From a virus, in IMG/VR virus record IMGVR_UViG_3300047562_002170, positions 1 to 31,017 of that record: a stretch of DNA of 31,017 nt, one strand, 5' to 3'. Under the pieces are notes generated by a model. The model searched no databases and was not told where the DNA came from. It was given only the letters and a program-made list of their open reading frames with translations. Position 1 is the first letter of the stretch, and each line of letters begins with the position of its first letter. Position numbers and translations under genes: made by a program. Positions 11,536-30,669 of this stretch are shown here, in pieces.

Positions 11536-11798
11536 TGACTAAAGATGAACAACTTGAAATTCTCAACGTCCTTGACAGACTTCCTCTTAATGAAGCCAAG
11601 TCGAAGGCGCTCGAGATTATTTCTACACTTTCTACAAAGACAGTGCGTCAAACCGCTGCAATAAATCGTTTAAAGTACGATATCGAGACCGCTAATACTT
11701 CGAAGTATATATGTGAATCGATGTGGCGTTCTTATTTAGCATCTCAAGGTCTGCGAGTTGCTGACTCGTCTTGGGATAAACACTACAAGAGTATTTGA
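11535..11798 (+). CDS. Hypothetical 87-residue helical protein
   Basis: No recognised domain. The protein is mostly helical, with DRLPLNEAKSKALEIISTLS and a C-terminal SQGLRVADSSWDKHYKS segment. The start overlaps the upstream stop (TAATG), so translation is coupled. Uninterrupted frame and coupling support it as a real gene in the operon led by the promoter at 11183. Confidence 0.65.
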   Translation: MTKDEQLEILNVLDRLPLNEAKSKALEIISTLSTKTVRQTAAINRLKYDIETANTSKYICESMWRSYLASQGLRVADSSWDKHYKSI

Positions 11799-11800
11799 TT

Positions 11801-12238
11801 ATGATTGGTGAATATACTGCTACTGTCCTTCAAGACTTTATCGACCGTCGTCAAGAACGTGTCGATGAAGACACTCGCACAGACGTAAATCCTTACTTCC
11901 AATGGGATTCTGAATTTGCTGAATGGCATCAGAGTCTCACTGATCCTTTACAAACAATGTACGAAGGATACGAGTTCGATACAGTACATGAGATGTATCG
12001 TAATCTTGATTATAAGATGTACTCAAAAGAAGGTGTAAAGGTTAGCCCTTACATTCAAAAACAAATTGATGCTGGTAAGATTGATCATTTAGTTGTCTGG
12101 AAATGGACAGACGGCTATAAACAATTGTACTTAAATCAAGAAGTTAAGTATACTATACTTGGTGTTGTGCCAGCTAAAGAAGCTGCAGCCAAACTAGTGA
12201 ATGGCCGTTTTAAATTTGAAGAGGTTTCCCATGTCTAA
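11801..12238 (+). CDS. Hypothetical 145-residue protein
   Basis: It starts MIGEYTATVLQDFIDRR and contains many aromatic and acidic residues, with no motif I can name. ATG 11801 is preferred over the in-frame TTG 11795, which lies over the upstream stop. The gene end overlaps the next start by 8 nt. Spacing and coding pattern support a real gene; function is unknown. Confidence 0.65.
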   Translation: MIGEYTATVLQDFIDRRQERVDEDTRTDVNPYFQWDSEFAEWHQSLTDPLQTMYEGYEFDTVHEMYRNLDYKMYSKEGVKVSPYIQKQIDAGKIDHLVVWKWTDGYKQLYLNQEVKYTILGVVPAKEAAAKLVNGRFKFEEVSHV

Positions 12239-13570: not shown

Positions 13571-14751
13571 TGGAACCAACTCAATATTATGACGAGTATC
13601 TTCGATACTTTGATTTGGCTCTTAGCCAACAAAAAAAATGTAATGTTTCAGAAGGCGTGCCTTATGGTATGATCTCTCATATTGAATCCAATATGGGAGA
13701 TGACTTACTTGAAAATGTTGAGTTATATGATGTTGTGGAACGCAAATTTGCAGGGTTTTCTCAAATTGTAAATGATATCTTTTATGGATGGACGGATAAG
13801 CATCCGTACTGGAAGAAGATGGAAGCCGGTAAAGTTACTCGTCAACGTGAACAAGTTGCTAAAGACTGGACAGGCAAGCATTCTGACTTTAGTCTTCCAG
13901 AATGGTTATATATATTCATACTACATCGTGTAACTGGTTCTGCTATTAATTACGCACAAAAACCGTCTGGATATTATAATACTATTTTATTTCATTTGCA
14001 TCAGTGTAAAAATATTGAAGAGATGGTTGGTCTACTCAATAACTATCCATATTCATTTTATACGTCAGTCGGTTATCAATTCCCTGCATTTCCAAAAGTT
14101 CCTGCCGATAAACCTTATAAAAAAGGTGGTGACTATTATCTTTCAGAATATGCGCCGCGCCTTGCAAGAGATTTAGCTGAGTGGCTTGAAAGCAGTAATG
14201 CTAAAAGAGATCTTCGTGAAATCGGCGATTGGATGTTAGCATGGAATGTTAAAAATGGGCTTCGTCAATATAAGTTTCAGTATGCTGCAGTTGTAGCAGA
14301 TATTGCAGATTGGTATCCACAATATGTAAATCTACAAAGTCCATTTTATTATGGAACAAATGCTGTCGAATGTATTTCTTATCTTGGTATTAATACACAA
14401 AGATTAAAAAAAGAAAAGTTTCTTGATACAGTAATGGAACGGATTTATGCCGATACTGGATCTTATCCTTATAATGCAGAAGATGTGTGTTGTGATTTTA
14501 TTCGCTGGGTTGAAAACTATGTAAAGCCAGGACCTGATTACAATCATCTAGATTTTGATAATGTCTGGTCATCTTGTAAAATCAAGGACCATCCTTATGG
14601 CAGACAAAAAGCCATGTTAGATCTTGGTCTTGTAGAGACATTTAACGGCATGACAAATCATCCATCCGATGATACGATTTTGAAAAAAGCAGGAATGTCT
14701 GTTGCAGAATACAAGGCAAAAGTAAATGGCACACAACAAGCATATCATTGA
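13570..14751 (+). CDS. Uncharacterised 393-residue protein of the putative DNA-modification cluster
   Basis: No family is certain. The protein is mainly helical, with many Trp and Tyr: VNDIFYGWTDKHPYWKKM (about 68-85), FILHRVTGSAINYAQKPSGYY, and a C-terminal DVCCDFIRWVENYVK. This helical layout recalls the helix-hairpin-helix-type phage enzymes linked to thymine hypermodification (the helical domain beside hydroxymethyluracil DNA kinase and the putrescinyl-thymine enzymes), but I cannot show a diagnostic motif. It starts in the last base of gp42 and overlaps the PLP-like gene by 26 nt, so it almost certainly acts in the same pathway. Confidence 0.6.
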   Translation: MEPTQYYDEYLRYFDLALSQQKKCNVSEGVPYGMISHIESNMGDDLLENVELYDVVERKFAGFSQIVNDIFYGWTDKHPYWKKMEAGKVTRQREQVAKDWTGKHSDFSLPEWLYIFILHRVTGSAINYAQKPSGYYNTILFHLHQCKNIEEMVGLLNNYPYSFYTSVGYQFPAFPKVPADKPYKKGGDYYLSEYAPRLARDLAEWLESSNAKRDLREIGDWMLAWNVKNGLRQYKFQYAAVVADIADWYPQYVNLQSPFYYGTNAVECISYLGINTQRLKKEKFLDTVMERIYADTGSYPYNAEDVCCDFIRWVENYVKPGPDYNHLDFDNVWSSCKIKDHPYGRQKAMLDLGLVETFNGMTNHPSDDTILKKAGMSVAEYKAKVNGTQQAYH

Positions 14752-15628
14752 TGGTATTAATAAGGATGTAGGCATTTATGGGTGGGAAGGCGCCAAGGAC
14801 TACTATCTTAAACTTGCAGAAACATGGATCGATCCTTATCCAGATCCCGTAGTTACAGTTCATGATGGTGTTCGTTGCGTTCGAGATGACTTGATTACTG
14901 GAACTAAGGTTCGTGGTGGTGATTGTCTTCTATCAAGAATTAATCAATCAACCATCGTATATGTTCAGCCTCGTACTGGTTTAGCTGGTGTCTCTATTCT
15001 TGATGTTGCTAAACGCTATGACAAGAAGGTAAAGCTGTTTATGCCTTCTTCTCAACGTATTTCACACCATCAGGCATGTTGTATCGAACGTGGTGCCGAG
15101 GCATCTTTTCACCGTATTGCCGCTATGCCAAATCTAAATAAAATTGCCAAGGATTGGGCAGATTCACAGGATGATGCATTCTTCGTTCCATTAGGATTAA
15201 AACACGAACTCGTTACGGCTGGTATTGTTAAAGCTGCATCAAAGATTGAAGAACCAGATGAAGTTTACGTTGCTATCTCAACTGGTGTTCTTTCAAGAGC
15301 AATGCAAATTGCATGGCCGAATGCTAAGTTTCATTCAATTGCAGTTTCTCGTAATCTAAAAGCAGGTGAACTTGGCCGCGCTGAAGTTATCTCCGAACCA
15401 TTAGCTTTTACTCAAAGCGAGAAGTCTGAAAATCTTCCACCATTCCCGTGCATTGATACGTATGATGGTAAAGTGTGGAAATATATTCCAAAGAATACCG
15501 GCAAAAACATTTTATTTTGGAATGTTGGAAAAGAACCTGTGCTTAACGATCCTACGATTTATGATCGCGTAGATAGTTACCGCGATTGGCCAAAAAATGA
15601 TGTACAATATAATGTACTTGATGTATAA
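14726..15628 (+). CDS. PLP-dependent enzyme, fold type II-like
   Basis: The 300-residue protein resembles the cysteine synthase/ACC deaminase fold. DDLITGTKVRGGD holds a candidate PLP lysine, Lys61. PRTGLAGVSILDVAKRY and VKLFMPSSQRISHHQACCIERGA look like the substrate loop and first Rossmann half. ISTGVLSRAM could be the phosphate-binding loop. PLP enzymes act in some phage base-hypermodification pathways, so a role in adding or processing an amino-acid-derived group is plausible, though not shown. ATG 14726 overlaps the upstream gene by 26 nt. A non-catalytic relative is possible. Confidence 0.6.
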   Translation: MAHNKHIIDGINKDVGIYGWEGAKDYYLKLAETWIDPYPDPVVTVHDGVRCVRDDLITGTKVRGGDCLLSRINQSTIVYVQPRTGLAGVSILDVAKRYDKKVKLFMPSSQRISHHQACCIERGAEASFHRIAAMPNLNKIAKDWADSQDDAFFVPLGLKHELVTAGIVKAASKIEEPDEVYVAISTGVLSRAMQIAWPNAKFHSIAVSRNLKAGELGRAEVISEPLAFTQSEKSENLPPFPCIDTYDGKVWKYIPKNTGKNILFWNVGKEPVLNDPTIYDRVDSYRDWPKNDVQYNVLDV

Positions 15629-21972: not shown

Positions 21973-22049
21973 GGTCCCGTAGCTCAGCTGGATAGAGCAC
22001 GTGCCTTCTAAGCATGGGGTCAGAGGTTCGAGTCCTCTCGGGATCGCCA
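21973..22049 (+). tRNA. tRNA-Arg(TCT)
   Basis: A complete cloverleaf is seen: acceptor GGTCCCG/CGGGATC, D stem GCTC/GAGC, anticodon loop CTTCTAA (anticodon TCT, reads AGA), T stem AGAGG/CCTCT, discriminator G and encoded CCA. AGA is favoured in AT-rich phage genes. Confidence 0.95.
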
Positions 22050-22077
22050 TTATGGTGTTGCTACCTAATAAGCACGC

Positions 22078-22099
22078 GAGAGATTATGGTTAGTCTCTC
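22078..22099 (+). other. Hairpin between tRNA-Arg and the next small gene
   Basis: GAGAGA (22078-22083) pairs with TCTCTC (22094-22099), extendable inward to 9 pairs with a 4-nt loop. No T-run follows. It may mark the 3' end of tRNA processing or only be a stable leader stem. Confidence 0.45.
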
Positions 22100-22126
22100 A
22101 TTCACCCTCATCTAAGGATATAGATT

Positions 22127-22288
22127 ATGACACTTTTTCTTTTCGGACTAGTTATTTTTCTTTTATTTGTTTATCTTTGCATTAAAGATATGGAACGTGA
22201 AACAACGTCGCTTAGATCGGGCACCTTGTGGGCTCTTACCGGGTTTTGGGCATATGGATTGCTAGACACACTTGTTAGAGCAATATGA
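22127..22288 (+). CDS. Small membrane protein, 53 residues
   Basis: It starts MTLFLFGLVIFLLFVYLCI, a clear transmembrane helix, and a second hydrophobic stretch (GTLWALTGFWAYGLLDTL) ends it, with a charged loop between. Two-helix topology in the inner membrane is likely. The ribosome site is AAGGA, somewhat upstream. Its stop overlaps the next start (ATGA). Such phage mini-proteins often alter host membranes, but nothing here shows how. Confidence 0.6.
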   Translation: MTLFLFGLVIFLLFVYLCIKDMERETTSLRSGTLWALTGFWAYGLLDTLVRAI

Positions 22289-22524
22289 CGCCGCAAGAAA
22301 TATCTGATCATAAAATGAGATGGATGCCCGGTCACGAAGTGATCGTGCATTCAGATTTACGTGATCACGCCAAAGATTGGTGTAAAACTAAACTTAAAAT
22401 GTGGGAATATAAAATTGTACAATGGACTCATCCGTATGCTTTTACGTATCGATTCGAACATGAGCATGATGCAAAAGAATTTGCGCAAGAATTCAAAAGC
22501 TGGGTTAATGTAGGAATCGATTAA
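22285..22524 (+). CDS. Hypothetical 79-residue protein in the tRNA region
   Basis: It is rich in His, Trp and charged residues (MRWMPGHEVIVHSDLRDHAKDW; FEHEHDAKEFAQEFKSW). It looks like a small alpha/beta domain. Coupled to the membrane protein upstream and followed by tRNA-Leu after 14 nt. No recognised family. Confidence 0.65.
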   Translation: MTPQEISDHKMRWMPGHEVIVHSDLRDHAKDWCKTKLKMWEYKIVQWTHPYAFTYRFEHEHDAKEFAQEFKSWVNVGID

Positions 22525-22538
22525 GAGTACCGCTCCAT

Positions 22539-22621
22539 GGGCACGTGGCGAAATCGGTAAACGCAACGGACTTAAAATTCGTCGGGAAACCTTGCGGGTT
22601 CGAGTCCCGCCGTGCCTACCA
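22539..22621 (+). tRNA. tRNA-Leu(TAA)
   Basis: Acceptor GGGCACG/CGTGCCT, anticodon loop CTTAAAA (anticodon TAA), a long variable arm as expected for Leu, T stem GCGGG/CCCGC, discriminator A and encoded CCA. It reads UUA, common in this AT-rich genome. Confidence 0.93.
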
Positions 22622-22627
22622 GTTTAA

Positions 22628-22703
22628 GGTCCCTTAGTTCAGTAGGTAGAACAACGGACTTTTAATCCGTGTGTCGCTGGTTCAAGTCCAGCAGGGATCA
22701 CCA
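22628..22703 (+). tRNA. tRNA-Lys(TTT)
   Basis: Acceptor GGTCCCT/AGGGATC, D stem GTTC/GAAC, anticodon stem ACGGA/TCCGT with loop CTTTTAA (anticodon TTT), T stem GCTGG/CCAGC, discriminator A, encoded CCA. It starts 6 nt after tRNA-Leu. Confidence 0.95.
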
Positions 22704-22716
22704 AATTAAAAAGTAG

Positions 22717-22742
22717 GCCGGTATAGCTCTTTATAGAGAGCA
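22717..22742 (+). pseudogene. 5' fragment of tRNA-Thr (acceptor and D arm)
   Basis: GCCGGTATAGCTC (22717-22729) equals the first 13 bases of the intact tRNA-Thr at 23107. The D stem is closed by GAGC (22738-22741) with a changed loop, and the A at position 26 is kept. Then the sequence departs into a late promoter. It therefore forms a direct repeat, 390 bp apart, that brackets the endonuclease gene. An alternative reading is a weak hairpin terminator followed by TTTTT. Confidence 0.65.
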
Positions 22743-22749
22743 ACGTTTT

Positions 22750-22757
22750 TATAAATA
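22750..22757 (+). promoter_or_regulatory. Late promoter of the endonuclease VII-like gene
   Basis: A perfect TATAAATA box lies 20 nt before ATG 22778, leaving room for a short leader with a GGAGG ribosome site (22768-22772). T4 gene 49 is likewise served by a late promoter. Confidence 0.75.
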
Positions 22758-22777
22758 GAATAAAAGCGGAGGCTATT

Positions 22778-23106
22778 ATGAAGAACTGTAAACATTGTGG
22801 AATTGAATTAACACCAGAAGTAAAACATGAAGGACTGTCATGTAAAACTTGTAGAAACGGATTGGCACGATATGGATTGAATAGAAATCAGCAAAAACAA
22901 TTGCTGGAGTCTCAAAATCATAAATGTGCGCTGTGTGAAGATACTGTAGAATTGCATACCGGTAATAACTGGAATGGTGTTATAGATCATGACCACGAAA
23001 CAAATAAAGTAAGAGGCATTCTTTGTGGATATTGTAATGTTGCTTTGGGCAAATTAGAAGGCAACAAATTAAACAATTTCGCGAAAAATGTTTCTACATA
23101 TATAAA

Positions 23107-23116
<10 letters not shown>
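22778..23116 (+). CDS. Recombination endonuclease VII-like (His-Me finger) nuclease
   Basis: T4 endonuclease VII (gp49) cuts branched DNA before packaging. This 112-residue protein (gp49: 157) has the nuclease core: Cys50 and Cys53, the VIDHDHETNKVRG active-site segment (Asp70-His73) and Cys83/Cys86, which hold a zinc ion in the family. An added N-terminal CKHC...CKTC pair (4-25) suggests a second zinc finger. The last three codons and stop are the first 10 bases of tRNA-Thr. It may be the phage's resolvase or a free-standing homing nuclease of the same family; size and position favour the latter. Confidence 0.82.
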
Positions 23117-23181
<65 letters not shown>

Positions 23182-23197
23182 TATAAAAGAGGATGAT

Positions 23198-23383
23198 ATG
23201 AGCGAGAATAGTAATTCGTCTGTAAAAGTGTTGTCGGCTGCTATTGTTGGTATTGCCACAGTCGGAGTTGCAGCTTATGCTGGTTATAAGACGTATAAAC
23301 AAATGAAAGATATAGATTTAAATAATATCTTTGATGATCTTAATGAAACATTTTATAACGATCTACCTAAAAAAGAAACGTAA
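23198..23383 (+). CDS. Small membrane-anchored protein, 61 residues
   Basis: A hydrophobic stretch (VLSAAIVGIATVGVAAYAGY, residues about 10-29) is followed by a charged, acidic tail. It lies between tRNA-Thr and tRNA-Asn with an AGAGGATGAT ribosome region before ATG 23198. No recognised family; single-pass membrane topology is likely. Confidence 0.6.
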   Translation: MSENSNSSVKVLSAAIVGIATVGVAAYAGYKTYKQMKDIDLNNIFDDLNETFYNDLPKKET

Positions 23384-23391
23384 CTAGTTAT

Positions 23392-23466
23392 TCCCCGATA
23401 GCTCAGCGGTAGAGCAGACGACTGTTAATCGTCCGGTCGGTGGTTCGAATCCATCTCGGGGAGCCA
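23392..23466 (+). tRNA. tRNA-Asn(GTT)
   Basis: Acceptor TCCCCGA/TCGGGGA, D stem GCTC/GAGC, anticodon stem GACGA/TCGTC with loop CTGTTAA (anticodon GTT), T stem GGTGG/CCATC, discriminator G, encoded CCA. Confidence 0.95.
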
Positions 23467-23821: not shown

Positions 23822-25054
23822 ATGGGCGAGAAGCGCAATTACAATCTAGTCGATACGATGAAAAAACTGCAGGGTTCGTGGTTTGTTGAGCATACTAGAG
23901 CAAAACGAGGGGCTGCTGATCTAAGGGATCTACTCACCCGTGAAAAACCTGTTCGTACATTCGGAGCGTACAATGGTCAACAAGCGGTTCAGCATGTAAA
24001 GGCTGGATTAGAAGCAATCTATGTTTCCGGTTGGCAGGTAGCGGCCGCCCACAATTCAACACAACAAACATATCCCGATCAGAGTCTCTATGCTGTTGAC
24101 TCTGTGCCTAATGCGGTTCGCTCAATCCAGAATGCTTTCCGTAGGCAAGATCAGATTCAAGTTGTGGAAGGGATGTCACATAAAGATCCTGATTATCGGT
24201 TCTGGGGTAATGTCCCTATCATTGCTGATGCTGAAGCAGGTTTTGGTGGGGCGTTGAATGCTTATGAGCTTACTCGTAGTTTGATTGAGGCAGGTGCTGC
24301 TGCAGTACACTTCGAAGATCAATTGGCAGCAGAAAAGAAATGTGGCCATCTTGGTGGTAAGGTCCTCATTCCGACTTCACAAGCAATTCGTAACCTCAAT
24401 GCAGCACGACTCGCTTCAGACGTAGAGCGTACCAATACCGTAATCATTGCTCGTACCGATGCTGAAGCTGCAAGACTATTGCTGTCAGATGTTGATGATG
24501 TCGATAAGAAGTTTCTCACTGGTAAGAGGACCGAAGAAGGTTTCTATGAAATTACTGGTGGTTTGGAAATGGGCTGTGAGCGTGGTCAAGCATTTGCTGA
24601 ATACGCCGACCTAGTCTGGTGTGAAACATCTAAGCCATGCCTCAAGGAAGCCAAGCGATTTGCCGATGCAGTTCGTGGTGCCGTTCCAGACCAACTACTA
24701 GCATACAACTGCTCACCTTCGTTCAATTGGAGACAGCATCTTCCGTCAGATACAGAGCTTGCAGAGTTTCAAACAGAGCTTGGTAAGATGGGATACAAGT
24801 TCCAGTTTATCACTCTTGCTGGATTCCATTCAACAAACTATGCGGTGTTTGATTTTGCTAAACAGTATGCCCAGGATGGTATGCTTGCATATTCTAGATT
24901 GCAAGAAAAAGAGTTTGCAGCTCTTAGCGAAGGATTCACATCAGTTAAGCACCAGCGTGAAGTTGGGGTCGGATACTTCGATGCAATTTCTCAGGCTGTA
25001 GGAGCTAGTTCGGTTGCTGCTCTAAAAGATTCTACAGAATCTGAACAATTCTAA
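23822..25054 (+). CDS. aceA: Isocitrate lyase
   Basis: Isocitrate lyase splits isocitrate into glyoxylate and succinate, the entry of the glyoxylate shunt. The 410-residue protein (E. coli AceA: 434) keeps the conserved blocks: YVSGWQVAAAHN, IIADAEAGFGG (metal site), the catalytic KKCGHLGGK with Cys174, IIARTDAEAA, LVWCETSKP, NCSPSFNW, and a C-terminal ESEQF like AceA's. No truncation or frameshift is visible, so activity is expected. GGAAG precedes ATG 23822. It is a clear auxiliary metabolic gene in phage DNA. Methylisocitrate lyase is less likely given the AceA-like motifs. A strong terminator follows. Confidence 0.95.
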   Translation: MGEKRNYNLVDTMKKLQGSWFVEHTRAKRGAADLRDLLTREKPVRTFGAYNGQQAVQHVKAGLEAIYVSGWQVAAAHNSTQQTYPDQSLYAVDSVPNAVRSIQNAFRRQDQIQVVEGMSHKDPDYRFWGNVPIIADAEAGFGGALNAYELTRSLIEAGAAAVHFEDQLAAEKKCGHLGGKVLIPTSQAIRNLNAARLASDVERTNTVIIARTDAEAARLLLSDVDDVDKKFLTGKRTEEGFYEITGGLEMGCERGQAFAEYADLVWCETSKPCLKEAKRFADAVRGAVPDQLLAYNCSPSFNWRQHLPSDTELAEFQTELGKMGYKFQFITLAGFHSTNYAVFDFAKQYAQDGMLAYSRLQEKEFAALSEGFTSVKHQREVGVGYFDAISQAVGASSVAALKDSTESEQF

Positions 25055-25078
25055 TACTCTAGACAATTTAATAAATTA

Positions 25079-25100
25079 GGGGCCCACGGGCCCCTTTTTT
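25079..25100 (+). terminator. Rho-independent terminator after isocitrate lyase
   Basis: GGGGCC (25079-25084) pairs with GGCCCC (25089-25094) around CACG, followed by six T. It insulates the isocitrate lyase transcript from the curli operon. Confidence 0.92.
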
Positions 25101-25107
25101 ATAAATA
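25100..25107 (+). promoter_or_regulatory. Late promoter of the curli/cyclase operon
   Basis: A perfect TATAAATA shares its first T with the terminator T-run. Start of transcription would be near 25113, only about 2 nt before ATG 25115, so the first gene would be nearly leaderless. The following genes of the operon have their own ribosome sites. Confidence 0.7.
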
Positions 25108-25114
25108 CACGTGT

Positions 25115-25402
25115 ATGGATTACAATGTTATTTTTCAATTGATTGCTGACGTGGGGTTTCCCATTGCTGCCGCATTGGTCGGTGGTGTCTTTGTATATTT
25201 TGTTATCAACTACATTCTTGAGAGTGTGGTTAAAGCTATTAAGGGTATGCAAGGTATTATCATCGGACTTGATAATCGCGTGAAGACTATGAACCATGAT
25301 ATTATTCGCGTTGACGCTGTGGTTAGTTCTGCACTCGGTTTGAAACCCGATCTGGATCGTATTGCTCGCGCGGATGGTAAGAACGACGCGCGGAAGGACT
25401 AA
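25115..25402 (+). CDS. Membrane coiled-coil protein A (holin/BhlA-like layout)
   Basis: The 95-residue protein has one N-terminal membrane helix (GFPIAAALVGGVFVYFVINY, residues about 14-33) and a helical tail with heptad pattern (LDNRVKTMNHDIIRVDAVV). It has no Shine-Dalgarno before ATG 25115 and starts just after a late promoter. The next gene is a paralogue: both share GFPI, FVYF and a RV...D.IR motif. The layout is that of small holin-like or bacteriocin-associated (BhlA/UviB) proteins, so lysis or pore assembly is possible. Function is not established. Confidence 0.6.
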   Translation: MDYNVIFQLIADVGFPIAAALVGGVFVYFVINYILESVVKAIKGMQGIIIGLDNRVKTMNHDIIRVDAVVSSALGLKPDLDRIARADGKNDARKD

Positions 25403-25654
25403 ATGGATCCACAACAAATTGCTGAACTTATACAGCAGTATGGTTTTCCAATTGTCGCCTCAGTAGGCCTTGGATATTTTGTTTATTTCATCTATAAGTT
25501 CGTTACCGACAAATTGATGCCCTTAATTGGTGAGACCAATGTCATTTTGATAGATCTCATTGATCGCGTTCGTATGCTTGATAACGATTTGATTAGATTA
25601 CAGCAGAAGGTATCTGTGCTATTGCAGGTTAAGGAAGAAAAAAATGAAGATTAG
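25403..25654 (+). CDS. Membrane coiled-coil protein B, paralogue of the gene before it
   Basis: The 83-residue protein has a membrane helix (GFPIVASVGLGYFVYFIYKF) and a coiled-coil tail (LIDRVRMLDNDLIRLQQKV). It begins immediately after the upstream stop. The order of motifs matches the 95-residue neighbour, so the pair arose by tandem duplication. A hetero-oligomer in the inner membrane is a reasonable guess. Confidence 0.6.
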   Translation: MDPQQIAELIQQYGFPIVASVGLGYFVYFIYKFVTDKLMPLIGETNVILIDLIDRVRMLDNDLIRLQQKVSVLLQVKEEKNED

Positions 25655-25790
25655 AATGAAGTTAGAGCTGCTGAAGATCTTCACTTTTGAATTCGATTTA
25701 GACACATATAAAGGTAAGAACGATGAAGAGACTATTGATAGTGATTCCGCTGATCCTGGCGACACCAGCGATGGCTCAGTACAATCGTGA
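25644..25790 (+). CDS. Possible 48-residue overlapping small protein
   Basis: An open frame with AAGGAAG upstream runs MKIRMKLELLKIFTFEFDLD and then an acidic Asp/Ser-rich tail. It overlaps the preceding gene by 11 nt and the start of csgF by 68 nt. It could be a real coupled mini-gene or a leader that feeds ribosomes into csgF. Low certainty. Confidence 0.3.
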   Translation: MKIRMKLELLKIFTFEFDLDTYKGKNDEETIDSDSADPGDTSDGSVQS

Positions 25791-26163
25791 TTTTCAGTTT
25801 AAGAACCCATCGTTCAGTGGACAGAATGCTTCTGCCCATTGGTTGACGATTGAGAACCAGGAGTTTACACGTAAGCAGGAAATTAGAGAGAAGATCGAGG
25901 AACAACTTGAGGAAGCTGCAAGAGAAGAGAAGAATTCCTTTCTCAATAGATTCCTTAACAACCTACAATCAAGAATCTATTCAAGGCTTGCTGCCCAGTT
26001 AACGGACAATTTGTTTTCACAAGAAGGGCAAAGTGGGTCATTTGAGTTAGAAGGAAATACTATATCATATGCTGAAGATGGTGACGAACTTGTATTGACG
26101 ATCGTACAGGCCGATGGCTCTGTCACTGAGATCAGAATACCGTTATCAGGATTCAGTTTTTAA
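25723..26163 (+). CDS. csgF: Curli assembly factor CsgF
   Basis: CsgF binds the CsgG pore and anchors curli subunits at the cell surface. The 146-residue protein has a signal peptide cut after ATPAMA (18 residues), and the mature N-terminus QYNRDFQFKNPSFSGQN matches the CsgF segment (FQFRNPNFGGN in E. coli) that inserts into CsgG. A charged helical middle (65-85) and a beta-strand end follow, as in CsgF. Length is close to E. coli CsgF (138). It starts inside a short overlapping frame, and csgG begins at its stop codon. Confidence 0.9.
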   Translation: MKRLLIVIPLILATPAMAQYNRDFQFKNPSFSGQNASAHWLTIENQEFTRKQEIREKIEEQLEEAAREEKNSFLNRFLNNLQSRIYSRLAAQLTDNLFSQEGQSGSFELEGNTISYAEDGDELVLTIVQADGSVTEIRIPLSGFSF

Positions 26164-26948
26164 TGAAACATTTTATTTTGTTATTGACTATATTATTAGG
26201 AGGATGTACAATTGGCGTAGCAGGGTCAAAACAATGGCATACACCCGATGCTCCAAGACTAGTTACACCATCCGATGTAACAGGTTTGATTTCATTACAA
26301 CCACCATATAGAAGACCGGTCGTTGCTGTATATGAATTTCCCGATCTAACGGGACAAAGAAATGAAGGCGGAGCTACTTCGAGTCTATCAACAGCAGTAA
26401 CTCAAGGCGGGACTGCTATTCTGATAGATGCTCTAAAGAATGCAGGTGGTGGCACGTGGTTTACGGTCGTAGAAAGAAATAGAATTGATAATCTTGCTAA
26501 GGAAAGGCAGATTGTCAGACAACAAAGAGATGAGTACGAAGGAGATAATGCTACAAAACTTCAACCGATGCTTTTCGCTGGGCTAATAGTTGAAGGTGGT
26601 ATCGTAGGCTACGATACGAGTTTAATGACAGGAGGTGCTGGTGCTAGGTATCTCGGAATTGGCGGTACTCATCAATATAAGAAAGACCAAGTTATAGTTT
26701 CGTTAAGAGCAGTTTCGACAAATACAGGAGAAGTTATTCTTAACGTTCAAATATCGAAGACGATTTATTCTTATGGAAATGATCTTTCGGTATTTAAGTT
26801 TGTTGATGCTGGCACAGACCTAGTGGAATTTGAAACTGGTATGACAGAAAACGAAGCAAACACAATGGCAGTAAAGATGGCGATAGAGGCTGCAGTCGTG
26901 GAAATGATTAAGCAAGGAATAGAAAGGGATATTTGGAGGTACAAATGA
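26163..26948 (+). CDS. csgG: Curli secretion channel lipoprotein CsgG
   Basis: CsgG is the nine-subunit outer-membrane pore that exports curli subunits (type VIII secretion). The 261-residue protein (E. coli: 277) has a lipoprotein signal with lipobox LGGC, Cys15. Family blocks follow: VVAVYEFPDLTGQ, STAVTQGGTAILIDAL, WFTVVERNRIDNLAKERQI, VEGGIVGYDTSLMTGGAGA, and YLGIGG in the pore-forming region. The end IKQGIERDIWRYK matches the CsgG C-terminal helix. It starts at the csgF stop (TAATG) and ends overlapping the curlin-like gene (ATGA). Confidence 0.95.
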   Translation: MKHFILLLTILLGGCTIGVAGSKQWHTPDAPRLVTPSDVTGLISLQPPYRRPVVAVYEFPDLTGQRNEGGATSSLSTAVTQGGTAILIDALKNAGGGTWFTVVERNRIDNLAKERQIVRQQRDEYEGDNATKLQPMLFAGLIVEGGIVGYDTSLMTGGAGARYLGIGGTHQYKKDQVIVSLRAVSTNTGEVILNVQISKTIYSYGNDLSVFKFVDAGTDLVEFETGMTENEANTMAVKMAIEAAVVEMIKQGIERDIWRYK

Positions 26949-27640
26949 AACTAATCAAGAATTTCTTGGTTATGCTTACATTATTGATTCCAGCGATTGC
27001 ATATGGACAGTCAACAACAAACTCGATCTACATTGAGCAGATCGGCGATGGTTCAACGATAACTATCGAACAAACGGGGAACACTAATACGATCGGTGAT
27101 ACCGTTTTGGATATTCCATTTGATCTTAATGGGGCATCACAAAACATTACGGTAACTCAAGATGGCAACTCTAACTCACTTGATGGAGCGATTAAAGGAG
27201 CAAACATTACTGCTAGCATCGACACAACAGGTGATACAAACGATCTTGATTTCGATGTCGGGGCAACTGCGGCCAGTGGATCAACACTTGACTTTGATGT
27301 AATAGGCAGTGGCAACGATGTCGACTTTACGCAAGGATCGTTAAACTCTGCTACCAATGCTGATGTCACTGTTGGTATCACTGGTGACTTTAACACGTTT
27401 GATTCCACCATCGAAACAGATGATGTTACAAATACATTTGCTGTTACCGGCGATTCAAATGACATGACTATTGTTCAAGATGGTTATGCTGGTAAGAACA
27501 TTGATATGGATCTTACTGGATCAACAAATACCGTAACAGTTAATCAGAAGAGCACGTTGAATGTTGATTCAATTAATCTCACGTCTACGACGAGCAACAG
27601 TACTATTAGCATTAATCAGTGCGACTCCACTGGTTGCTAA
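26945..27640 (+). CDS. Curlin-repeat (CsgA/CsgB-like) secreted protein
   Basis: The 231-residue protein has a signal peptide (ending IAYGQS) and then about eight imperfect repeats of roughly 22-26 residues. Each has alternating Ile/Val/Leu strands and a Gly-[Asp/Ser/Asn]-x-Asn turn, for example ITIEQTGNTNTI, ITVTQDGNSNSL and VTVNQKST. The Gln and Asn ladder of curlin is best kept in the first and last repeats; middle repeats use Asp instead. A Cys pair ends the protein (NQCDSTGC). GGAGG supports ATG 26945; the TTG 26933 upstream is not used. Beside csgG it should be the exported fibre or a cap. Confidence 0.82.
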   Translation: MKLIKNFLVMLTLLIPAIAYGQSTTNSIYIEQIGDGSTITIEQTGNTNTIGDTVLDIPFDLNGASQNITVTQDGNSNSLDGAIKGANITASIDTTGDTNDLDFDVGATAASGSTLDFDVIGSGNDVDFTQGSLNSATNADVTVGITGDFNTFDSTIETDDVTNTFAVTGDSNDMTIVQDGYAGKNIDMDLTGSTNTVTVNQKSTLNVDSINLTSTTSNSTISINQCDSTGC

Positions 27641-28634
27641 TGATATTGGTTCGGTAACGCAATCAAAGGGGACTGGCGAAGTAGTTCGTAATCAAACGAA
27701 GTACAACGTCAGGCCCCAGTTACCTATTCGTCAAAACGATACAGTAAAGACGGGCAATGGTCGTGTCAGGATTACGTTTGTCGACGATTCAACTGTTAAT
27801 GTTACCGAACAGTCTCGTTTAGTTATCGATGACTTTGTTTACAATGGTAACCCATCTGCATCGAGGATGGCACTTCGGTTCGCATCCGGGACCGCTAGAT
27901 TTACATCTGGTTCAGGAAGAATTGCCAAACCGAACATAGCTCTCAGAACACCTTCTGCAACAATTGCCGTTCGTGGAACAGACTTTACAACGACAGTCGA
28001 TGAGTTCGGTAAGAGCCTAATTATTCTACTACCATCTGATGATGGAACGGTCGGAGAGATCACGGTTTCTAACGCAGCAGGAATTGTTGTCCTCAATCAA
28101 GCATTTCAAGCAACTCTTGTCGAGACGTTTGATTCTCGACCATCGCAACCTCTAATACTCAATCTTTCATTGGATATGATCGATAACATGATCATTGTTA
28201 ATCCACCTGAAGAAATAAAAGAGTATGAAATAGCAGATTCAAGAACTAATATTCTTGATCTCTCAGAACTCGATATAGATTACCTAGAATTTAAGGATCT
28301 TGAAAAAGATGATCTAATCTTTGATCAATTGGATAAGGATCTATTGAGTGTAAACTTCTTGGAAGACTATCTTGATGATGGTGGCGGTGATTTGTCCGAT
28401 TCAGTAGATGGGGTGTCGATTGTAGGAACGACTTTTGGTTATAATGAAAGTACGCAGATCTATGCAATCATTGCACAGGATTCTATAAATATCTCAAGGT
28501 ATGTTGGTGGCACAATAAGCATTAACTTGTCTAAAGATGAAGGAAAGAATATCCTTCTTAATCAAAATAAAATTATATACGATTTAAAGGTAAATGGCGG
28601 TGGATCAGAAATTATCATCACGCAATCTGACTAA
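27561..28634 (+). CDS. Secreted FecR-domain protein
   Basis: The 357-residue protein begins with a signal peptide (RRATVLLALISATPLVA) that is encoded in the last 80 nt of the curlin gene, in another frame. No later in-frame start would keep the signal. A FecR-type domain spans about 40-175: VKTGNGRVRITFVDDSTVNV, then LRTPSATIAVRGTDFTTTV. An acidic linker follows, and a C-terminal beta-rich tail (IYDLKVNGGGSEIIITQSD) slightly recalls a curlin strand. FecR proteins sense or scaffold in the periplasm. Here it may link the exported fibre to the cyclase encoded next, overlapping by 41 nt. Confidence 0.85.
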   Translation: MLIQLISRLRRATVLLALISATPLVANDIGSVTQSKGTGEVVRNQTKYNVRPQLPIRQNDTVKTGNGRVRITFVDDSTVNVTEQSRLVIDDFVYNGNPSASRMALRFASGTARFTSGSGRIAKPNIALRTPSATIAVRGTDFTTTVDEFGKSLIILLPSDDGTVGEITVSNAAGIVVLNQAFQATLVETFDSRPSQPLILNLSLDMIDNMIIVNPPEEIKEYEIADSRTNILDLSELDIDYLEFKDLEKDDLIFDQLDKDLLSVNFLEDYLDDGGGDLSDSVDGVSIVGTTFGYNESTQIYAIIAQDSINISRYVGGTISINLSKDEGKNILLNQNKIIYDLKVNGGGSEIIITQSD

Positions 28635-30669
28635 GATACTCCTATCCCCATGGATGGCATTGCTTACGTTTGCAATTCTATTATCTGTTAAGTTTGCAGA
28701 TCCGTATCTCGTAGAGTCAACAAGGTTAACATCCTATGATTATATTATGCTTGATGAAAAAATTGAAGCTGACGGTATTGTTGTTGCAAATATCGGTGAA
28801 AAGGCAATTGAAAAATACGGCCAATATCCATTTCCGCGAGAAGTATATTCAGAGATCATAAAAGATCTATACGATAATGGTGCATATCTGGTCACATCAA
28901 CTATTATGTTTCCCGAATATGATCGATTCGGTGGTGATGGTGCGCTGGAACAAACTTTATCAGAATATCCTATCGTCCTTAGCCAATCGGTTTTAACCGA
29001 ATGCGGCACTAATCCCAATACAGAAATTCGCCGGACCGGTGTTGCTGTAGTCGGGGATGGTCAGCCGACCGACTTTCTACCAAACTATCCCTGTGTCCTT
29101 GATAACATTCCCATTCTTCAAGAAGCTGCAGTTGGAGTTGGTGTAACATCGACATTGCCGGAGAGTGATGGGGTCGTGAGAAGAGTTCCTCTGTTAGCGA
29201 CTTCAAACGGTGAGTACTATCCTGCATTTGCACTTGAAGTTCTCCGAGTTCTAGCAGGAGATCCTTCATATCAAGCGAAGATAAATCAGTCTGGTGTGGA
29301 AGCATTGCGTATTCCTCAATTTGATACTATAAACACTGATCCTTATGGAAGGATCTTTATTAATCCTAATTATTCATTCAAGACGGTAGAGATAGGAGAT
29401 AATCTTCCAGATCTAACTGGCAGCACTGTGATTCTTGGTGTTTCTGCAACGGGAGTTGTAAACCCAGTTCCAACAGCTTCGGGGGCCCAAACCCCGCATC
29501 AAATTCAGGCCAGTCTACTTCAAACTCTATTTGATGGCAATTCTGCATCGATTCCGCAATGGGTAGATTTATTAGATTTGATTGCTTTTGTGATTCTTTC
29601 TCTGACATTAATAGTTCTTTCCAGGTTTAAATATTCAATAATTTTTATTGGAATAGTTTTTGCTGGCTATTTGTATTTGCCAGTGTATCTATTTGTACAA
29701 AATAATATTCTTTTTGATGTTAGTTTTAATTTACTAGCTGGACTATTAATCTACCTTCATATTTATACCGCTAAATATATCTCTGAATATTTACAGAAAC
29801 AGCAGATCAAGAAACAGTTTGGAACGTATCTGTCTCCTGCTATGGTCGAGAAGCTGCAGAAGAATCCTGAACTGTTAAAGCTAGGTGGTGAGTCGCGTGA
29901 GCTGTCGATCATGTTTACAGACGTGCGGGGATTCACAACGATCTCCGAACACTACGGCGAAGACGTTCAAGGTCTGACTAAGATAATGAATCGTTACATG
30001 ACAGCTATGACAAAAACAATTATTGAAAACGAAGGAACTATAGATAAGTATATAGGCGACGCGCAGATGGCGTTTTGGAATGCACCGTTGAATGACCAAC
30101 ATCATGCTTTACATTCAGTACAAACGGGGTTAACAATGCTAAAAGACTTGGAGACATTTAATGAAGAGATTGCAAGAGAAGGTATACCTGCTTTTGGCAT
30201 GGGTCTTGGTATTAACACTGACACTGTTGTGGTTGGTAACATGGGTTCTGATCAACGTTTCGATTACACTTGTTTGGGGGATGGAGTTAACCTTGCAGCG
30301 CGTCTTGAAGGTCAAACAAAAAGTTATGGCGTCAAAATTATTATCGGGCCTAAGACAGCCGGATATATCAAAGACATTTACCAAGTTATTCAGCTCGACC
30401 TTATAGCTGTTAAAGGTAAAACAAAGCCAGTAAAGATCTATACTGTTGTTGAAAACTGGGATAACATTGGACACACTCAACACAAAAAGTTCCTAGCACT
30501 ATATCGTCAAGGTCACTTTGATGTAGCTAAGAGATATGCAATAGAGTTAAAACAATCATTCCAGGGTCAGCTGTTCGAATACTATACAATGATGATAGAA
30601 CGGATCGACCATCTCAAAATCGAAAAGCCAAAAGATTGGGATGGAGTTTATAGAGCTACATCAAAATAA
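28594..30669 (+). CDS. CHASE2-domain class III adenylate cyclase
   Basis: The 691-residue inner-membrane protein has one N-terminal helix (about 17-35), a large periplasmic CHASE2 sensor (40-320), three helices (about 325-393) and a cytoplasmic cyclase domain (435-610). The cyclase has metal aspartates Asp443 (FTDVRGFT) and Asp489 (YIGDAQMAFW), Lys485 and Thr559 as likely adenine-recognising residues (CyaC type), and Asn566/Arg570 (VNLAARLE) for the transition state. All key residues are present, so it should make cAMP. AAAGG precedes ATG 28594. A guanylate cyclase is less likely because of the Lys/Thr pair. Confidence 0.93.
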   Translation: MAVDQKLSSRNLTKILLSPWMALLTFAILLSVKFADPYLVESTRLTSYDYIMLDEKIEADGIVVANIGEKAIEKYGQYPFPREVYSEIIKDLYDNGAYLVTSTIMFPEYDRFGGDGALEQTLSEYPIVLSQSVLTECGTNPNTEIRRTGVAVVGDGQPTDFLPNYPCVLDNIPILQEAAVGVGVTSTLPESDGVVRRVPLLATSNGEYYPAFALEVLRVLAGDPSYQAKINQSGVEALRIPQFDTINTDPYGRIFINPNYSFKTVEIGDNLPDLTGSTVILGVSATGVVNPVPTASGAQTPHQIQASLLQTLFDGNSASIPQWVDLLDLIAFVILSLTLIVLSRFKYSIIFIGIVFAGYLYLPVYLFVQNNILFDVSFNLLAGLLIYLHIYTAKYISEYLQKQQIKKQFGTYLSPAMVEKLQKNPELLKLGGESRELSIMFTDVRGFTTISEHYGEDVQGLTKIMNRYMTAMTKTIIENEGTIDKYIGDAQMAFWNAPLNDQHHALHSVQTGLTMLKDLETFNEEIAREGIPAFGMGLGINTDTVVVGNMGSDQRFDYTCLGDGVNLAARLEGQTKSYGVKIIIGPKTAGYIKDIYQVIQLDLIAVKGKTKPVKIYTVVENWDNIGHTQHKKFLALYRQGHFDVAKRYAIELKQSFQGQLFEYYTMMIERIDHLKIEKPKDWDGVYRATSK

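Follow-up and report, generated by a model that had tools for sequence, protein, structure and literature searches.

The stretch of DNA analysed here, called the window, is a virus record of 31,017 bases with T4-type genes (gp23-type capsid, scaffold, UvsW, SbcCD-like and clamp loader). At about 25100 to 30669, it carries on its plus strand a module in which a late promoter is followed by two small membrane genes, csgF, csgG, a curlin gene, a gene for a FecR-domain protein and a gene for a CHASE2 adenylate cyclase. The initial annotation had proposed a curli-type export module under a late-type promoter in a T4-like genome, and this was supported; the genes that it placed at 25723 to 27640 are indeed there, but the unit extends to both sides of that span. 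The spacing of successive genes from the first small membrane gene to the cyclase gene is +0, +68, -1, -4, -80 and -41 nt, and from csgF onward each neighbouring pair overlaps, by 1 to 80 nt. Upstream, an intrinsic-terminator-like hairpin on the plus strand (25078 to 25095; 7-pair stem with 6 G-C pairs, T run) ends an isocitrate lyase unit; 9 such sites were found in the region, with 3.2 expected.

The T4-type late promoter TATAAATA lies at 25100 to 25107, its end 7 nt before the start codon of the first module gene, and a second copy lies within the FecR gene at 28484 to 28491, about 110 nt ahead of the cyclase start. The window contains 8 copies, compared to a mean of 3.05 in shuffled sequences, and because this enrichment is modest, a single site is weak evidence alone. 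Across the loci of the module, 21 of 83 have the octamer in the 100 bp ahead of their first module gene, compared to a background density on each strand of 0.008 per 100 bp, and we infer late expression. In phage Melnitz (locus L002, 8812 to 8821) it overlaps the ATG, and with the motif so near or over the start codon in both phages, late mRNAs may be nearly leaderless.

The first two genes encode small membrane protein A (25115 to 25402; 95 aa with an N-terminal hydrophobic helix) and its paralogue B (25403 to 25654; 83 aa), both assigned to phrog_18771. The pair and their relatives are single-helix proteins of about 83 to 116 aa, and B also gave a weak match to a holin family (phrog_4898, E = 0.0012). 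Judged from position, they are probably the genes called histidine kinase in a published description of the module (PMC9599517). However, neither HisKA, HATPase nor other kinase domains were found with Pfam in the window pair or in 10 relatives, and since proteins of 83 to 116 aa are also too short, the histidine kinase label does not hold for them.

The csgF gene (25723 to 26163) encodes a secreted protein with the motif FQFKNPSFSG (PF10614, E = 9.8e-17), and csgG (26163 to 26948) encodes an outer-membrane pore lipoprotein with an LLGGC lipobox (PF03783, E = 2.5e-51). CsgG of the window was colinear from end to end with the solved CsgG of E. coli (E = 4.6e-63); the hairpin regions were ungapped, and the sole gap in the channel region was one residue near its end. 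Therefore, the hairpin regions are not missing. CsgF of the window gave no match by sequence to the solved CsgF. The lipobox pattern was present in 58 of 70 distinct CsgG starts, and of the 12 misses, 11 have a cysteine after LCG, LNG or ING (by eye) and the last is a mis-started fragment. At the pore-loop position equivalent to E. coli F56, phage CsgG proteins have Leu in 27, Phe in 26 and Ile in 12 of 69, and 4 were unmatched. CsgE, the periplasmic gate of type VIII secretion, is absent from the window, as the initial annotation had noted, and from all 15 related records. Because E. coli does not depend on CsgE to make curli, as stated in the part of PMC7029224 available to us, the type VIII label was kept in the form "curli-type." From the homology of its parts, a working exporter of this kind is probable.

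The candidate substrate is a secreted curlin-repeat protein of 231 aa (26945 to 27640, from the ATG at 26945; PF07012, E = 2.2e-5) that ends with TISINQCDSTGC. Its Q-x-G-x-x-N units are conserved, and just one repeat passes in Pfam PF07012. The Pfam searches that the initial annotation had named as a check thus matched CsgF, CsgG and the curlin repeat at their annotated positions, and with CsgG colinear, neither of the outcomes that it had named as refuting, a lack of profile matches or a CsgG without pore hairpins, occurred. Its remark that a second curlin is not seen was likewise correct for the window; in other lineages, this gene sits between those for FecR and the cyclase. The second curlin of phage HTVC008M, gp018 (locus L001, 10638 to 11963), is annotated as hypothetical and carries a PA14 domain (E = 2.7e-6), a hint at adhesion; no Pfam domain was found in three other long second curlins. 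Many first curlins have a FecR-like last strand followed by a cysteine-bearing tail, and 5 of 9 bacterial curlins end with the FecR-type strand motif (counted by eye).

The FecR-domain protein (27561 to 28634; PF04773, E = 4.1e-11) has a signal peptide, a FecR domain at about residues 29 to 209, a low-confidence linker at about 210 to 276 and an all-beta C-terminal domain at about 277 to 357. An AlphaFold model computed from 44 sequences showed a confident FecR domain (residues 29 to 200), low confidence at about 220 to 276 and a C-terminal domain (279 to 355) with a pLDDT of about 82 to 90, whose last strand is the curlin-type ending; a single-sequence model (pLDDT, 35.9) was discarded. The FecR domain resembled the signalling domain of PupR (Z = 15.8, rmsd 2.3, 134 residues aligned; Foldseek E = 7.0e-5) and the "Cell surface anchoring domain" 5ix9 (Z = 9.8, rmsd 2.0, 73 aligned, 30% identity; Foldseek E = 1.3e-3). 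We take 5ix9 to be part of a giant ice-binding RTX adhesin, for which a literature search gave no confirmation. No clear fold match was obtained for the C-terminal domain, the VIA-align rows covering mainly residues 28 to 208. Relatives of the phage FecR were found in 106 of 289 alphaproteobacterial genomes, and among the best 28 bacterial rows, 21 fell within open frames no shorter than 800 aa (by eye). Among eight N-terminal parts of large bacterial proteins, all had a FecR domain, three had RTX (one of them also Calx-beta) and another had cadherin. The position of the FecR domain near the N terminus of large, probably secreted, proteins suggests an anchor role. A role in iron regulation was considered and dropped, since neither an ECF sigma factor nor a TonB-dependent receptor was found with Pfam among the 10 proteins scanned between 23475 and 31015.

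The FecR protein ends in a curlin-type strand, SEIIITQ (residues 349 to 355; 28605 to 28625, plus strand), with an invariant Gln 355. A strand motif, [IVL]x[IVLA]xQ plus 1 to 3 residues at the C terminus, was picked after three sequences had been seen. It ends 52 of 53 distinct phage FecR proteins, compared to 3 of 691 other open reading frames, a count close to a single observation because the phage FecR proteins are homologous; an earlier, slightly different pattern gave 48 of 53 and 8 of 691. In the other module proteins, the motif was found in 26 of 89 curlins, 0 of 65 CsgG, 4 of 63 CsgF, 0 of 52 cyclases and 0 of 87 small membrane proteins. When 52 phage FecR proteins were aligned, the Gln was present in every one, and the position four before it was Ile in 51 and Val in 1. 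In the window, the FecR gene end overlaps the cyclase start, a possible extra constraint on the ending; two loci (L054 and L089) keep the motif without the overlap. The motif was absent from all nine alphaproteobacterial FecR proteins encoded beside CHASE2 cyclases, and 1 of 8 other bacterial FecR ends matched a looser pattern admitting T; both control sets are small. With hhalign, the FecR tail was aligned to the curlin alignment with a probability of 4.4% and over the last 6 columns only, compared to 1.7% for CsgG and 1.5% for CsgF as controls. This profile match is weak, and homology of FecR and curlin is not established beyond the last strand.

The last gene of the module encodes a CHASE2 class III nucleotide cyclase of 691 aa (28594 to 30669; CHASE2, E = 1.7e-29; Guanylate_cyc, E = 1.6e-17). 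It keeps the catalytic residues D443, K485, D489, D557, N566 and R570, which presumably serve as metal, adenine and transition-state residues. Among 51 distinct full cyclases, D443, K485, D489 and R570 were present in all, N566 in 47 and D557 in 46.

CsgG relatives were found in 7 of 50,697 annotated phage records (two of HTVC008M, four of Melnitz and one 1.5-kb Salmonella phage fragment); in IMG/VR, 472 of 490 candidate stretches encode one. We compared 90 loci, namely, the best 80 of the 472 IMG/VR relatives, 7 loci from genome assemblies, the window, HTVC008M and Melnitz. Home-made profiles detected CsgF in 86, FecR in 84, the cyclase in 74 and the small membrane proteins in 65. The order of the window, from the two small membrane genes to the cyclase gene, was found in 27 loci and with a second curlin added before the cyclase in 14; the others were mostly cut by contig ends or were without one or both small membrane genes. 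Ratios of dN/dS were mostly 0.04 to 0.2 for csgF, csgG, curlin, FecR and cyclase (up to 10 pairs each), which shows purifying selection; the row for the small membrane genes was left out, with paralogues mixed in some pairs. HTVC008M (a phage of SAR11) and Melnitz (OM43) share with the window CsgF, a curlin and the two small membrane genes, with identities of 44 to 46% for CsgG, 39 to 40% for FecR and 40% for the cyclase, but both have a second curlin. In addition, contigs labelled as Pelagibacter, Rhodobacteraceae or Flavobacteriaceae MAGs (L089, L084 to L086 and L087) also have the phage cassette; these are probably phage sequences that were placed in bacterial bins.

The cassette is a further member of a published kind, with the pore genes described in 2020 and the full module in 2022. 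As far as the texts were accessible, CsgF, CsgG and a curli-associated protein were reported in pelagimyophages (PMC7029224), and the initial annotation had rightly suspected earlier reports of curli genes in SAR11 myophages. The complete set, in which histidine kinase, FecR, a second curlin and adenylate cyclase are included, was described for podo- and myophages (PMC9599517). The link to FecR and the cyclase, which the initial annotation would have looked at first, is therefore already in print (PMC9599517). The same paper, in the parts available, gives an alphaproteobacterial origin, the lack of CsgE in phage curli regions and expression of the module in metatranscriptomes. The window has the same genes in the same order as the pelagiphage module of these two papers, FecR and cyclase included, but it has no second curlin, and no kinase family was recognised in its two small first genes. 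What is added here is the finding of no kinase family upstream, the FecR ending, the PupR- and anchor-like fold, the spanin neighbours described below and the scarcity of cAMP-binding proteins. In the accessible parts of PMC9599517 and PMC7029224 there is no mention of the FecR C-terminal strand or of spanin neighbours, and no mention of the strand was found in literature searches, which covered chiefly open papers.

The E. coli curli system (csgBAC and csgDEFG) has CsgG, CsgF and curlin repeats in common with the window; in contrast, CsgE was not found in the window, a CsgD/CRP route is not evident there, and FecR and the CHASE2 cyclase are extra. Of 52 FecR places listed for bacteria, 16 had a CHASE2 gene within 8 kb; CHASE2 was found in 46 of 96 genomes and CsgF in 7 of 385. 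Neither FecR nor the cyclase was near any of five bacterial csgF-csgG loci examined. Since FecR and CHASE2 are close to each other in bacteria but absent at bacterial csgF-csgG, the cassette looks like curli genes joined to an envelope sensor pair. A Burkholderia biofilm operon has, like the window, a gene for a periplasmic FecR-domain protein beside one for a CHASE2 sensor enzyme (PMC5192318), and in Sinorhizobium meliloti, a FecR-domain protein is under the cAMP regulator Clr, and removal of CHASE2 from CyaD-type cyclases leads to constitutive cAMP formation (PMC5498481). No tie of these pairs to curli is described in the accessible parts of either paper, unlike the situation in the phage cassette.

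The reading that we prefer is that late in infection, CsgG and CsgF would assemble into an outer-membrane pore of the host that exports the curlin-repeat protein, which would then probably form a fibre on the infected cell. FecR would link the fibre to the cell, with its FecR domain in the periplasm, a flexible linker that can reach the pore and a curlin-type last strand that joins or caps curlin; the inner-membrane CHASE2 cyclase would read the state of FecR and make cAMP. We put the probability of this whole chain of exporter, FecR link and cyclase readout, final use excluded, at roughly 0.45, with the exporter weighing most. Homology gives the exporter good support; the arguments for the coupling to FecR are its C-terminal strand, a fold resembling an anchor and the gene order kept among loci, and FecR as a tether is a tentative proposal. 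Adhesion of the infected cell to neighbours or surfaces would be the most likely use of the fibre, and that is a guess. An amyloid nature of the product and the uses put forward in the initial annotation (blocking superinfection, gathering cells or virions, nutrient flow) are conjecture as well. Counting against the mechanism are the missing CsgE, the one passing curlin repeat, the weak FecR-curlin profile match, the FecR C-terminal domain without a clear fold match, the lack of clumping reported for Melnitz cultures (PMC9004378) and the scarcity of cAMP-binding proteins, with none in 13 phage records and few in SAR11-type genomes. A still more specific version appears unlikely: FecR as curli tether and as sensor of strain or completion, with a periplasmic adhesin-like anchor, a linker through the CsgG/CsgF pore and a strand in the fibre, the cyclase reporting fibre status as cAMP to a receiver other than CRP in hosts mostly without CRP.

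A different function has been proposed for Melnitz, whose pore was described together with a role in lysis timing and whose cultures did not clump (PMC9004378, as far as accessible); CsgG/CsgF, perhaps with the small membrane proteins, would then act as a gated pore or pinholin-like device. Consistent with such a function, we found an Rz-like spanin pair (phrog_739 and phrog_812) near the module in 12 loci, 8 times downstream and 4 times upstream, and the weak holin-family match of protein B and the late-type promoter point the same way. In five loci (L048, L052, L053, L073 and L089), the module lies between a gene for a 128-aa-class phrog_10198 protein and the spanin pair, and in L089, terminase and portal genes come next. 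Such neighbours link the cassette, over part of its range, with the lysis stage, and they support late action without proving or excluding a role in lysis. However, an outer-membrane pore such as CsgG would by itself not breach the inner membrane, spanins were near the module neither in the window nor in most of the 90 loci, many of which are cut short, and the conserved curlins, FecR and cyclase would be left unexplained; we consider lysis timing improbable. The words holin, spanin and endolysin are absent from the main text of PMC9599517. CsgG has also been suggested to admit larger nutrients or cofactors to the host (PMC7029224 and PMC9599517, accessible parts). An ungated pore would fit the failure to find CsgE, and a gene family for outer-membrane beta-barrels is near the module in 21 loci, but uptake needs none of CsgF, curlin, FecR and cyclase, yet all of these are under purifying selection, which makes uptake very unlikely.

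FecR and the cyclase could also be a separate sensor that travels with the curli genes and has no contact with the fibre. In favour of this, bacteria often have FecR-CHASE2 pairs at places remote from curli, and the five bacterial csgF-csgG loci have neither gene nearby. This reading is doubtful in view of the curlin-type ending, which the phage cassette has but the nine bacterial FecR proteins beside CHASE2 cyclases lack, and of the gene order kept across distant phages. Finally, the missing CsgE could mark a decaying remnant of a bacterial curli operon, but the frames are intact, dN/dS is low, the catalytic residues are conserved, and the module is expressed in metatranscriptomes according to the accessible part of PMC9599517; decay is hardly credible.

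Control of curli by cAMP through CRP and CsgD was suggested from gammaproteobacteria (PMC9599517, in the part available). We searched for the cNMP-binding domain PF00027, which was absent from all 13 phage records searched, the window included, and present in 2 of 60 SAR11-type genomes (the family of G002, a MAG titled Pelagibacter), which may not be the host of the window. One of the two positive genomes has a CRP-sized protein and the other has two proteins, whose frames are about 1000 aa long. A CRP-CsgD route was therefore rejected for SAR11-type hosts, and with cAMP-binding proteins missing from the 13 phage records and few in these genomes, the cAMP signal is without a known receiver. 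PF00211 cyclases were found in 2 of the 60 genomes, one on a phage curli contig (L188) and one (L189) without another module gene beside it in the 3.5 kb covered. Among phages of streamlined aquatic bacteria, the cassette is widespread, and it would provide the infected cell with a surface structure that is said to be lacking in the host lineage. If FecR is a fibre-linked sensor, one would understand why its pairing with the cyclase, apart from curli in the bacteria examined, stays joined to curli in phages, and both the role of a fibre in infection and the meaning of cAMP in a host seemingly without a receptor would become testable. Further work could best start from the C-terminal strand of FecR, the spanin genes near the module and the lack of a known receiver for cAMP.

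Some neighbouring genes were also observed. Directly upstream of the curli unit lies an isocitrate lyase gene (23822 to 25054) with an apparently intact KKCGH motif; a homologue in Phage C48C1 with 66.7% identity is annotated as hypothetical. Just upstream, five tRNA genes (Arg, Leu, Lys, Thr and Asn) are clustered at 21973 to 23466. An open reading frame at 14726 to 15628 resembles phrog_7093, "threonine dehydratase" (E = 1.8e-38), with no Pfam match at E = 0.001. The beta-barrel family near the module in 21 loci is OMP_b-brl, as at 11615 to 12133 of locus L020 (E = 6.3e-14).
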